A DNA stretch of 64,000 nucleotides, taken from Prochlorococcus sp. MIT 1300. GTDB lineage: Bacteria > Cyanobacteriota > Cyanobacteriia > PCC-6307 > Cyanobiaceae. Under the pieces are notes generated by a model. The model did no database searches and had not been told where the DNA came from. It saw nothing but the letters and a program-made list of their open reading frames with translations. The DNA lies in contig NZ_CP139302.1 in assembly GCF_034092375.1 (NCBI RefSeq), positions 620,001-684,000 on the forward strand, given 5' to 3'. Position numbers and translations under genes: made by a program. Every line of letters begins with the position of its first letter. The stretch's first letter is position 1. Below, piece after piece: positions 22,346 to 36,561 of the stretch.

Positions 22346-23800
22346 TTAATTAGAATCTAACTTATTAAGCTGATGAACAGCTTGTTTGTAAGCAACTTCA
22401 ACAACTTCACTAAGAGTAGGGTGGGTATGAACTTCACAAGACAATTCTTTAACACTCTGGCGCCTTGCTATTGCATTAGAGACCTCTTGAATAAGGTCTG
22501 CAGCATGCAGACCAAAAATATGTGCGCCTAATACCTCTCCTGTGTCTTTCCTAAATAGCAACTTCATAAGACCATCACCTTCATTTTCCGCCAATGCTTT
22601 TGAGTTAGCTTTAAAATAACTTCGCACGCTTCCTAATTCAAAGCCAGATTCATCAGATAGTTTCCTCGCCTCTAATTCAGAAAGTCCTACCGAACTAATT
22701 TCTGGATGTGTAAAAGTAGCCGCAGGAATACTTCTATAGTCAATTAATCTTGAATTACCAAGTATATTGTCAACCGCTATAGTTCCTTGCGCCGCTGCAG
22801 TATGAGCAAGCATCATTTTTCCAGTTAAATCTCCCACAGCCCATAAATTGGGGATAGGTTTTCCATCTACTAATACACGCATATGATCATCTACTGGTAC
22901 AAATCCTCGATTAGTTTCTATACCTAAACAACTAAGGTTGAGTTCTTCACTTGAAGGGACTCGCCCTGTGGCAACCAATACTGCATCGACCTCAAGCTGT
23001 TCTAATGGTTCTTTAGTCTTCGTGTCTGCAAGATCAATTTTCACAGGGCATCCAGGTACAATTTTGTTTGCCAAAACCCCTGCACGAGCATCAATATCCC
23101 GACCATCAATTAGTTGTCTTTTAGCCAATTTGGTGAGATCAACATCAAAAGTTGGCATCACCCGCTCAAGAGCTTCGATCATTGTCACTTCGCAACCAAG
23201 CGCCGTATAAACATCCGCAAATTCCAAACCTATATAGCCGCTACCGATTATTGCTATCCATCTAGGCAACCATTCAAGATTTACCGCTTCATCACTAGTA
23301 AAAACAGTACGGCCATCAGTCTCAATTCCCGGAGGTACAAAAGGGTCAGAGCCTGTAGCAAGAATAATGTTTCGAGAACTTAAAACCCTATCAACTCCAT
23401 TCTTATCTCTAACACCGACTCTCTGAGGCCCCTCTAAGCGGCCAGAGCCAAGAAGGATAGTTACACCAACTCTTTCAAGACTCTTAGTGAGGTTAGTGCG
23501 AATAGTTTTAACCAAATTATTCGCATGTTCAGCAATTTTTCTCCTTTCAAAACGTACCGGAGACGCATGAATTCCAAAACCAGAAAGATGAGCAGAATCT
23601 GCCAGTTCACGAACCTTTCCACTTGCAGCCAACAAAGCCTTAGAAGGCACACAACCTCGATTCACGCATGTGCCTCCCATTTCTCGCGACTCAACAATGG
23701 CCACCTTTAGGCCTTTCTCAGCAGCATGCTTTGCGGCATCAAAGCCCCCATAACCTGCGCCGATAACTATGAGATCAAAGTCGAAACTGGCTTCCTTCAC
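22346..23800 (-). CDS. lpd: Lpd, dihydrolipoyl dehydrogenase (E3)
   Basis: A 484-residue FAD flavoprotein that reoxidises lipoyl groups of pyruvate dehydrogenase and the glycine cleavage system. It has an FAD-binding [17 protein letters not shown], the redox disulfide in [16 protein letters not shown], an NAD-binding [20 protein letters not shown], and the C-terminal HAHPTLSE-type motif here as [13 protein letters not shown]. The gene overlaps the upstream methyltransferase gene by 4 bases. Confidence 0.97.
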
Positions 23801-24657
23801 TCGAGCTTTTGCATTGTCTTGGTCATTTTGGCCCTTCGTCGCTCAAGAAGCATCGGAACTGCTGCAGCTGCCACATTGAGTGACTCAACATTTGAGCTAT
23901 GAGGGAGGGTAACTCCATGCGTACAACAGCTCTTAAGAAGTGGATGTATACCTGATCCTTCATTACCCAACAACAAAATGGTTGGCTTATTCCAATCAAG
24001 TTCCCAATAAGGTAAAACCGGAAAAATATCTGAAAAACCTGGAACAAAACTTCCAACAATTTGCTGGCCTGCTTTTGCACAAAGCCTGAGTTGATGTTCA
24101 AGCTTTAAGACACCCTTGCTTGCATCATCATCACCAAAACGACAAATTGGCATTCGAAGCAAAGCCCCTGAAGAAGCCCTAATAGCCTTTTGAGACATGG
24201 GGTCAGCACCGCCAGCCAGCCAAACAGCTTGAATTTCCGCAGCTAAAGCAGTTCTCAACAAAGTTCCTAAGTTCCCAGGATCTTGCAGACGATCTAAAGC
24301 TAAAACAAAATTGCTATGAGGCCTAGGCAAAGGAAGTGCTGAGATAGGTATTAAAGAAGCAACTCCATCAGGGCTAACTGTAGTTACTGAGGCAGCCAAC
24401 ACTGAAGGAGTGACCTCATATATTTGAGTTTCTGAATTTATCTCTCGCAGGATTGATTGATTTGCATCCATCCACAATCTTGTTGCAACAAGTTCTTTAG
24501 GCAGAGAACCTACTTTTAGAGCTTCTTCTAACAAATGTGTACCTTCTAATAACAGCATCGAATGTTCTTTTCTCCCTTCTCGTGTGGCAATTGACCTCAA
24601 TCGCTTAACGAGGGGATTCCTTCGGCTTTTAATAACAGTAGTGGGAATAATATTAAT
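23797..24657 (-). CDS. SPOUT (SpoU/TrmH-type) RNA 2'-O-methyltransferase, probable ATT start
   Basis: An RNA ribose methyltransferase with an N-terminal substrate-binding domain (LLLEGTHLLEEALKVG). The knot domain has LALDRLQDPGNLGTLLRTA, LLLGNEGSGIHPLL and LPHSSNVESLNVAAAA. The target RNA is not evident. The only ATG/GTG/TTG start near the N-terminus is TTG at 24600, but the codons upstream still encode the conserved family beginning (IKSRRNPLVKRLRS), and the frame is open back to a stop well inside the preceding gene. The best start is ATT at 24657, 7 bases after GAGGT. That gives 286 residues. Confidence 0.88.
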   Translation of the reverse strand: MNIIPTTVIKSRRNPLVKRLRSIATREGRKEHSMLLLEGTHLLEEALKVGSLPKELVATRLWMDANQSILREINSETQIYEVTPSVLAASVTTVSPDGVASLIPISALPLPRPHSNFVLALDRLQDPGNLGTLLRTALAAEIQAVWLAGGADPMSQKAIRASSGALLRMPICRFGDDDASKGVLKLEHQLRLCAKAGQQIVGSFVPGFSDIFPVLPYWELDWNKPTILLLGNEGSGIHPLLKSCCTHGVTLPHSSNVESLNVAAAAVPMLLERRRAKMTKTMQKLE

Positions 24658-24667
24658 AGTTAGTACC

Positions 24668-24916
24668 TCAAAAATCCTGTTGTTTTCTAACCCTTAACCC
24701 TTCACCAAGAAGCAACTTTTGTCCTTCTACTTCCATTCCATTAACTATAGAGATTTGTCCTTTTACCCCTTCGCCTTCGAGGTTTTTAATAAGCTCTTTC
24801 ATAAGCTGCTCTTCTACAGCAGTCTGATCAATTTGATCTGGCGTAAGAAGTTCTACAAACTTCCCAACTTTTGAAGCCACAAGTTCGGAAGCATTAGAAA
24901 TCTTCAACAAAATCAT
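24668..24916 (-). CDS. Conserved small protein of unknown function (82 aa)
   Basis: An 82-residue acidic protein: ILLKISNASELVASKVGKF, LTPDQIDQTAVEEQLMKELI, GQKLLLGEGLRVRKQQDF. No enzymatic motif is seen. Its stop codon is embedded in TGAGGT, which also supplies the ribosome-binding site of the methyltransferase gene, so the two are translationally coupled. It is transcribed away from tRNA-Leu(CAG). Confidence 0.65.
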   Translation of the reverse strand: MILLKISNASELVASKVGKFVELLTPDQIDQTAVEEQLMKELIKNLEGEGVKGQISIVNGMEVEGQKLLLGEGLRVRKQQDF

Positions 24917-34242: not shown

Positions 34243-35304
34243 ATGCCTTCCTCCCGCACATGTGTAGGGGTGGTTTTTGGTGGTGCTTCTGGTGAGCATA
34301 CCGTCTCAATCCAATCAGCAAAAACAGTTGTAAAGGCACTAAGAACAGGTGCCAACAAAAGTCGTTTCGAGGTAATTCCCATTTACGTCGACAGGCAAGG
34401 TTCTTGGCATGAAACAGCCATTGCGTATCAAGTATTAGGAGATGATTCTTATACTCTCCAAGCAAAACTTGCTTCCAAAAAAAATATTTCGGGATTCCAA
34501 GGGCTCCCACATAACACCTCTCGAATAGATGTTTGGTATCCAGTTATGCATGGTCCCAATGGAGAGGATGGAACTATGCAAGGTCTCTTCAAACTAATGA
34601 AAAAGCCTTTCGTAGGTTCTGGCGTACTTGGCTCTGCCTTAGCAATGGACAAACTGGCTATGAAAGCTGCTTTTAAAGCCGCAGAGATCCCTCAAGTCCC
34701 ATATCTTGGGGTAAAAGCAAGTCAACTTTCAGACGAAAACTATATCGAAGAGCTTATCAAAAAACTAGAGGAGAGACTTTCCTACCCTTGCTTTGTGAAG
34801 CCTGCAAATTTAGGTTCTTCTGTAGGAATAACAAAAGCATTTAATAAACAAGAAGTTTTAAATGGCCTCACTAAAGCAGCAAAATTTGACCAAAGAATAG
34901 TTATAGAAAAGGGACTTATTGCGAGAGAGCTTGAATGTGCTGCTCTAGGTCATGAGGATCTAAAGCTATCGGTTGTTGGGGAAGTACGTTTTGATTCAGA
35001 TTGGTACGACTATGAAACAAAATACTCAGAAGGACGTACTACGACGATTATTCCTGCAGCTATCCCTAAAAGCCTTGAAGATGAAATCCATAAGCAAACC
35101 AAGAGAGCTTGTCAAGCACTTTCTGTATCTGGAATGGCAAGGGTTGATTTTTTCTATGAAGAATGTATTCAAAAAATTTGGATCAATGAAGTTAATACCC
35201 TTCCGGGCTTTACACATCAAAGTATGTATCCAATGCTTTGGAGAGCCTCAGGTGTAACTCTCGAGGAACTTGTCTGCCAGCTTGTTGAAGCAGCGCGAGA
35301 ATGA
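34243..35304 (+). CDS. ddl: Ddl, D-alanine--D-alanine ligase
   Basis: A 353-residue ATP-grasp ligase of peptidoglycan synthesis. It has VGVVFGGASGEHTVSIQSAK, MHGPNGEDGTMQGLFKLM, GSALAMDKLAMKAAFK, PCFVKPANLGSSVGITKAF and INEVNTLPGFTHQSMYP (metal and substrate binding). It begins the ddl - unknown - ftsQ - DnaJ-like - ftsZ cluster. Confidence 0.97.
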   Translation: MPSSRTCVGVVFGGASGEHTVSIQSAKTVVKALRTGANKSRFEVIPIYVDRQGSWHETAIAYQVLGDDSYTLQAKLASKKNISGFQGLPHNTSRIDVWYPVMHGPNGEDGTMQGLFKLMKKPFVGSGVLGSALAMDKLAMKAAFKAAEIPQVPYLGVKASQLSDENYIEELIKKLEERLSYPCFVKPANLGSSVGITKAFNKQEVLNGLTKAAKFDQRIVIEKGLIARELECAALGHEDLKLSVVGEVRFDSDWYDYETKYSEGRTTTIIPAAIPKSLEDEIHKQTKRACQALSVSGMARVDFFYEECIQKIWINEVNTLPGFTHQSMYPMLWRASGVTLEELVCQLVEAARE

Positions 35305-35350: not shown

Positions 35351-35761
35351 ATGATTCACGGTCTGCTCTGGTTTCCACTCCTGCTTGCATTTTTAATGCT
35401 TACAGCCCTTGGCTGGCTTGAACGACGTAGGCAAAATCTCTTTCTTACTTGGGCAGAGGGAGCAGAACTTTCCAAGTTAGACAGTTCTGGGGCTGCGAAA
35501 CTTAAAGGAGGCCAATTAAGTTGGAGCAGCTTTGAAGCAGGAAGCTTCCAGGAGCAAGGAAGCTTTGAAGTCACAAAACTAGAACTAGTAGAGCTAATGG
35601 CATTAACTTCTGGAGAAGCTCCGTTAACGGAAGAGTCCCAAGGGCGCTGCCGACTACGACTAATCGGTGACGGCAAGGAAATGGATGTTCCTTTTGCTGA
35701 TGCTGAAAGAGCCCGCGAATGGATGGACCAACTCATGTCCAAAGCACGATGCGACTTATGA
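35351..35761 (+). CDS. Conserved membrane-anchored protein upstream of ftsQ (136 aa)
   Basis: One N-terminal membrane helix (LLWFPLLLAFLMLTALGWLE), then a soluble beta-rich domain (LSKLDSSGAAKLKGGQLSWS, RCRLRLIGDGKEMDVPFADA). No known domain is recognised. Its place between ddl and ftsQ, and a stop codon within TGAGGT that provides the ftsQ ribosome-binding site, suggest a wall or division role, which is inference only. Confidence 0.7.
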   Translation: MIHGLLWFPLLLAFLMLTALGWLERRRQNLFLTWAEGAELSKLDSSGAAKLKGGQLSWSSFEAGSFQEQGSFEVTKLELVELMALTSGEAPLTEESQGRCRLRLIGDGKEMDVPFADAERAREWMDQLMSKARCDL

Positions 35762-35772
35762 GGTAAACAGCT

Positions 35773-36561
35773 ATTAAAAAACAAAAATCAGCTCTTAATC
35801 CTAGGGAGGAAAGGCGAAGAAACTTCAGACATCAACGTCGCAATGATCAACTTGTAGAGTTATGGAGAGCAATCATATTTAGTAGTATATCTTTTGTACT
35901 TGGCTCAATACTACTTGCAAACGGATGGAGTCAAATAAATGTGAAGCATTTACGTATTAAAGGCAATTCAAAACTTGACCCACAATCAATCATAAATGCA
36001 TCTGGCAGTACCTTCCCTCAACCCCTACTTTTAATCAACCCAAAAGAGCTAGAACGAACTCTACTTATAATGCTGCCAGTCAAAGCAGTTTCTATACGTA
36101 AACAGCTAATTCCACCTAGACTCGAAATTGAATTACAAGAAAGAAAATCAATTGCATATGCAACAAGAAAGAGCTCTCAAGGCCCCTATGAGAATGGGGT
36201 TCTTGACAAAGATGGTCAATGGATGTCAATGAAAATTGCCAAGCTTGGCGACCCACCCACAACTCAAATAATAGTTGAGGGATGGACAAAAAATGATCAA
36301 AAAAGAATATCAATAATACTCCGTGAAAGGAGGAAAATTGGGAATGATCTTGAAAAAATAATTCTCTCGCCAACTGGTGAACTTAGCCTTAAAACAAAGG
36401 AATTCAAATTGATTCAACTTGGAAGTGATAAGAGTCAACTGATTAAACAACTTCAGGCCTTCACAGAATTAAAAAGGACATTGCCCAAAAGGCTTCGCAA
36501 CAAGAACGATTCAAGCATCGATCTGCGTGATCCATTGAAACCCGAACTACAAATACCCTGA
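35773..36561 (+). CDS. ftsQ: FtsQ-like division protein (POTRA), probable ATT start
   Basis: With the extended start the protein has a basic cytoplasmic tail (PREERRRNFRHQRRNDQLVE), one membrane helix (WRAIIFSSISFVLGSILLAN), a POTRA domain (VKHLRIKGNSKLDPQSIINA, LLINPKELERTLLIMLPVKA) and a beta domain. This is the exact FtsQ layout. ATG/GTG/TTG starts before the membrane helix do not exist: the first is GTG at 35941, which would remove tail and helix. An ATT at 35773 lies 8 bases after GAGGT and fits. FtsQ links FtsZ-ring components with septal wall synthesis. Confidence 0.85.
   Translation: MKKQKSALNPREERRRNFRHQRRNDQLVELWRAIIFSSISFVLGSILLANGWSQINVKHLRIKGNSKLDPQSIINASGSTFPQPLLLINPKELERTLLIMLPVKAVSIRKQLIPPRLEIELQERKSIAYATRKSSQGPYENGVLDKDGQWMSMKIAKLGDPPTTQIIVEGWTKNDQKRISIILRERRKIGNDLEKIILSPTGELSLKTKEFKLIQLGSDKSQLIKQLQAFTELKRTLPKRLRNKNDSSIDLRDPLKPELQIP

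Follow-up and report, generated by a model that had tools for sequence, protein, structure and literature searches.

A probable shift of the ftsQ translation start from an ancestral ATG to an AUU codon in Prochlorococcus sp. MIT 1300

In the deep-living ocean strain Prochlorococcus sp. MIT 1300, translation of the cell-division gene ftsQ has probably moved from an ancestral start that overlaps the upstream stop codon (RTGA; here ATG 35758) to an AUU codon at 35773, where it would depend on Shine-Dalgarno-assisted (re)initiation. We reached this reading by comparative sequence analysis of a 64,000-nucleotide stretch of the chromosome (the window, whose coordinates are used throughout unless genome coordinates are indicated). 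If it is correct, a cell-division gene with an essential role in other bacteria relies on a start codon that gene finders ignore, and its ancestral start has become a two-codon dead end, illustrating start-codon migration. A preliminary description of the window had proposed that ftsQ starts at this ATT; the codon stands as the best remaining candidate, and the in-frame ancestral ATG, aborted by TAA, had been overlooked.

The ftsQ junction and the N-terminus of its product

The features on which the argument turns are as follows.

34243–35304, forward strand: ddl, D-Ala-D-Ala ligase (Pfam PF07478, PF01820)
35351–35761, forward strand: upstream gene for a 136-residue protein with an N-terminal hydrophobic segment; stop TGA at 35759–35761
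35758–35766, forward strand: ATG AGG TAA minimal reading frame, the apparent ancestral ftsQ start, overlapping the upstream TGA (ATGA) and aborted at codon 3
35760–35764, forward strand: GAGGT, complementary to the 16S 3' end (ACCUC of CACCUCCU), at an aligned spacing of 9 to ATT
35773–35775, forward strand: ATT, putative ftsQ start, the sixth codon from ATG 35758
35773–36561, forward strand: ftsQ, 262 residues from ATT, with a basic tail, a membrane helix and an FtsQ-type POTRA domain (residues 56–124)
35941–35943, forward strand: GTG, first standard ftsQ start, giving a product with neither tail nor helix
37311–38471, forward strand: ftsZ (Pfam PF00091, PF12327)

At the junction, TGAGGT (35759–35764) is followed by 8 bases and then by ATT 35773–35775, and all the coordinates given in the preliminary description for this layout and for GTG 35941 are correct. 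Read across the upstream TGA, the ftsQ frame runs ATG (35758) AGG TAA (35764) ACA GCT ATT (35773) AAA AAA, and from ATT it stays open to the stop at 36561, with no internal stop or frameshift. No ATG, GTG or TTG lies in this frame between TAA 35764–35766 and GTG 35941. The resulting run of 58 coding codons that lack a standard start is, taken alone, only mildly unusual (P ~0.06). Apart from two AGG codons, the frame ahead of the helix contains a single codon that differs from ATG by one base, ATT 35773, which is also the only near-cognate there of a type with known use in bacteria; ATC 35872 and a number of ATA codons fall at or within the helix. The alternative frames are shut by TGA 35759 and TAA 35775, with no start between them, and we found no single insertion or deletion at the junction that would supply a standard ftsQ start from either of the other two frames.

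The identity of the gene product is supported by its domain content and its surroundings. It carries an FtsQ-type POTRA (PF08478, 49.7 bits against a cut-off of 23), preceded, in the product from ATT only, by the tail and single helix typical of FtsQ/DivIB, and it is encoded in a division-cluster neighborhood, flanked by ddl and, in the opposite direction, by a DnaJ-domain gene and ftsZ. The genome holds this one FtsQ copy, and a search of solved structures returned no sequence match. The 136-residue product of the upstream gene matched no family above cut-off, the only hit being a PH domain at E 0.05.

Counted from ATT, residues 1–34 include 11 K/R and 4 D/E, and the strongest 19-residue hydrophobic window begins at residue 30, with a score of 1.88; the best score in the GTG product is 1.07. 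Residues 9–55 are 46–47% identical to 28–29 relatives, much as the body of the protein is (44–47%), and residues 1–8 show no conservation (14%), the pattern to be expected close to a start. Ranked by the coding-like character of the sequence before the first standard start, ftsQ comes second among 687 genes in 864 kb. Hydrophobicity and conservation thus agree with the earlier claim that the ATT product has a basic tail and membrane helix and that the GTG product has neither. Conservation of the tail and helix at the protein level makes GTG 35941 a very improbable true start.

A broader form of this alternative, in which translation starts internally, either at ATC 35872 with the helix but no tail or at GTG 35941 with neither, or in which the gene is dying, has very little probability. 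GGAG does precede GTG 35941 at a spacing of 9, and GGAGA lies just before ATC 35872; against this, relatives retain both tail and helix, residues 9–55 are conserved like the body, the frame is intact and no second ftsQ exists.

Starts of ftsQ in relatives

A homologue of the upstream gene precedes ftsQ in 67 of the 68 relatives examined, and in 54 of 67 relatives the ftsQ start is a standard codon (ATG, GTG or TTG) overlapping the upstream TGA, at the site of ATG 35758. Every one of 30 further genomes, among them small-genome Prochlorococcus of other genera, has a standard ftsQ start, in 27 cases overlapping a TGA. These overlaps make ftsQ expression in the relatives look coupled to the upstream gene. 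Two probable other cultured strains of the same grade (LLVII), L014 and L050, have GTG at the ancestral site. Judged by this comparison, ATG 35758 is the ancestral ftsQ start, which a nonsense codon at the third position now truncates. The preliminary description had counted an upstream ATG reached by frameshift in homologues as evidence against the ATT; as worded this does not apply, and the starts of relatives fall at this very site and in this frame.

It had also suggested that ftsQ starts be compared across Prochlorococcus. In all ~97 family relatives with a readable junction a standard start precedes the helix; AUU occurs at the start column of none of them, all of those read using ATG, GTG or TTG, and the proposed shift to ATT is unique to this genome. 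In four relatives (L021, L032, L064 and L066) an in-frame stop lies beside the junction, and a standard start follows slightly downstream, which indicates that the ftsQ start site does move. Among the junctions read, only that of MIT 1300 has no standard start after the in-frame stop.

A separate junction, that of L026 (G144 contig C3), has ATA at the start column, overlying a TAA stop, and a GTG nine bases before it, and looks intermediate.

The nearest relatives are only ~50% identical, and the collection contains a single genome of the genus. Scanning genome and viral contigs at the protein level returned no close relatives. The exact junction sequence was not found elsewhere, so that no same-species sequence was available against which to compare the TAA.

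The ATT of ftsQ is not conserved, and one base change in TAA would restore an ordinary gene; both points count against an AUU start. In a rival reading, TAA 35764–35766 reflects an error in sequencing or a variant present in a single culture, with ftsQ in the population starting ordinarily at ATG 35758. One substitution would be enough, the ATG sits exactly at the ancestral site, we found no second strain of the species for comparison, and our sample contains a further nonsense codon, early and in frame, in an OsmC-like gene. PacBio errors, however, are mostly indels, and no single indel yields a standard ftsQ start. A well-placed GAGGT and ATT would, moreover, be a coincidence, and the genome of MIT1300xe (LLVII grade) is a closed PacBio assembly at 186-fold coverage (PMC11559063). 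We therefore consider an error or variant quite unlikely.

In the OsmC-like gene (genome ~1619347, forward strand), the in-frame TGA lies in the N-terminal part, at a position occupied by glycine in relatives; an obvious standard start is missing there in close relatives as well.

Initiation at AUU and its alternatives

Our preferred reading, (re)initiation at AUU, would proceed as follows. Ribosomes ending the upstream gene at UGA 35759–35761 would reach the ftsQ junction; alternatively, ribosomes initiating at AUG 35758 would stop after two codons at UAA 35764. In either case, GAGGU across the junction would hold the terminating or aborted ribosomes, and (re)initiation could take place at AUU, 6–11 bases further on from the stops. 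With AUU read as initiator methionine, the product would be the 262-residue FtsQ, its basic cytoplasmic tail and membrane anchor kept. As for the order of events, initiation at AUU was presumably working before the TAA could be tolerated.

It is from the directly observed features, namely the junction layout, an ATG site homologous to the start of relatives, the conserved tail and helix and the Shine-Dalgarno match, that we infer the use of AUU and the supply of ribosomes by translation upstream. ftsQ has no usable standard start for its conserved N-terminus, and a Shine-Dalgarno sequence lies at working distance from the ATT; AUU at the start column of relatives, which would lend further support, is absent. 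Re-initiation in E. coli spans a few bases and is aided by Shine-Dalgarno sequences, and the distance from UGA or UAA to AUU falls within its range (PMC2268962). AUU starts are established for E. coli infC and pcnB, and in S. aureus AUU and AUA have ~10% of the activity of AUG (PMC13009471; PMC5472188). A study of eukaryotic re-initiation (PMC4648390) was set aside as a parallel, since it concerns frog oocytes.

The same junction could be read as one in which ftsQ still starts at ATG 35758 and low-efficiency readthrough of UAA yields a little full-length FtsQ. The ancestral ATG is intact and the frame is the same on both sides of TAA. UAA readthrough is nevertheless rare, and RNA structure at the junction is not unusual (z 0.64), leaving this a highly unlikely account. 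Modest supply would be in keeping with the needs of E. coli, whose FtsQ roughly matches FtsB and PBP3 in abundance, at 147–336 copies (PMC4428075).

Compatible with AUU initiation is the further idea that AUU and the ATG-AGG-TAA decoy form a selected device for keeping FtsQ low or for control by IF3. The preliminary description had suggested, more simply, that low initiation at ATT could keep FtsQ scarce; in E. coli, as noted, FtsQ is similar in abundance to FtsB and PBP3. In S. aureus reporters an AUU or AUA start reduces initiation roughly tenfold (PMC13009471), and starts of this kind are repressed by IF3 (PMC5472188). AUU is, however, found in ftsQ of no relative examined, which argues against an old regulatory device, and a neutral shift of the start site fits the data equally; we regard selection for such a device as unlikely. 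The infC gene (genome 1371830–1372039, reverse strand), the classic AUU-start gene and here an internal control, has an ATG start immediately following a TGA. This counts against an AUU start in ftsQ, and IF3 autocontrol via a rare infC start is absent here.

Near-cognate starts in the genome and lineage

We placed the junction against the rest of the genome (1,855,146 bp) by sampling ~47% of it, comprising the window and 40 further stretches (sampled GC 41.3%). The Shine-Dalgarno scan covered 864 kb and 687 genes and called a 5-base match at a spacing of 5–10. Such matches are scarce, occurring at 26 of 687 first standard starts, and the GAGGT-to-ATT spacing in ftsQ falls within the range that this genome's standard starts use. 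As a chance control, of 590 AT[TCA] codons lying out of frame ahead of first starts, 7 (1.2%) have a 5-base Shine-Dalgarno. Upstream of genes, in-frame AT[TCA] codons with a 5-base match were not enriched (5/385, against 4/318 and 3/272 out of frame), which indicates that AUU starts are not a general habit of this genome. Nor did the genome-wide scan for TGAGGT-N7/8-ATT proposed in the preliminary description reveal clear over-representation (21 occurrences at N7 and 14 at N8, with 6–16 at other spacings); the string by itself is accordingly no evidence.

A second gene in the window has a similar candidate start.

23797–24657, reverse strand: SpoU-type RNA methyltransferase; proposed ATT start at 24657–24655, GAGGT at 24669–24665

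The resemblance between the two layouts pointed out in the preliminary description holds, with GAGGT then ATT in both, separated by 7 bases in the methyltransferase and 8 in ftsQ. The methyltransferase likewise has no standard start before its conserved N-terminus. Eight codons before its conserved (I)KSRRNP block (column -8), AT[TCA] is present in 16 of 30 picocyanobacterial genomes, against 0–4 at other upstream columns, and a Shine-Dalgarno accompanies it in 13 of those 16 (association, Fisher P 0.005). The column looks like a real conserved near-cognate start. For the methyltransferase the AT[TCA] start column is kept in about half of these genomes, whereas the ATT of ftsQ is kept in none of the relatives read.

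Two more genes drew our attention. A glcE-like gene (genome 370538–371821, forward strand) lacks any standard start close to the conserved N-terminus, both here and in several of the 17 genomes examined, and shows ATT or ATC ATT where the start is expected. In a UbiA-like prenyltransferase gene (genome 1744065–1744982, reverse strand), only ATC ATC follows AGGTAACGA, and most relatives have GTG or another standard start. Together with the methyltransferase, the glcE-like and UbiA cases back AT[TCA] initiation in the lineage, short of proof. That marine picocyanobacteria use AUU, AUC or AUA starts in a small, partly conserved gene set (the SpoU methyltransferase and the glcE-like oxidoreductase subunit; here also ftsQ and ubiA) under a common control of start-codon fidelity, with ftsQ as a recent recruit, is a speculative extension that we consider doubtful but conceivable. 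If the ftsQ reading is correct, it and the methyltransferase case suggest that annotation of the most abundant phototrophs misses rare starts.

Among systems described elsewhere, E. coli infC and pcnB resemble ftsQ in being chromosomal genes with an AUU start. They differ in that an aborted ATG start lies 15 bases upstream of the ftsQ ATT, and the AUU of E. coli infC serves the IF3 autocontrol that the ATG of this genome's infC does not provide. Streptomyces sigR, with its IF3-repressed GTC start (PMC5472188), likewise combines a non-canonical start with a badly placed canonical codon in a coupled operon, but its arrangement is conserved across Streptomyces, whereas only one genome shows that of ftsQ. 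S. aureus cvfC1 (AUU) and ccpN (PMC13009471) share with ftsQ a non-canonical start preceded by a recognizable Shine-Dalgarno; theirs were mapped by ribosome profiling and have long matches, while the putative ftsQ start has a 5-base match and comes from sequence analysis.
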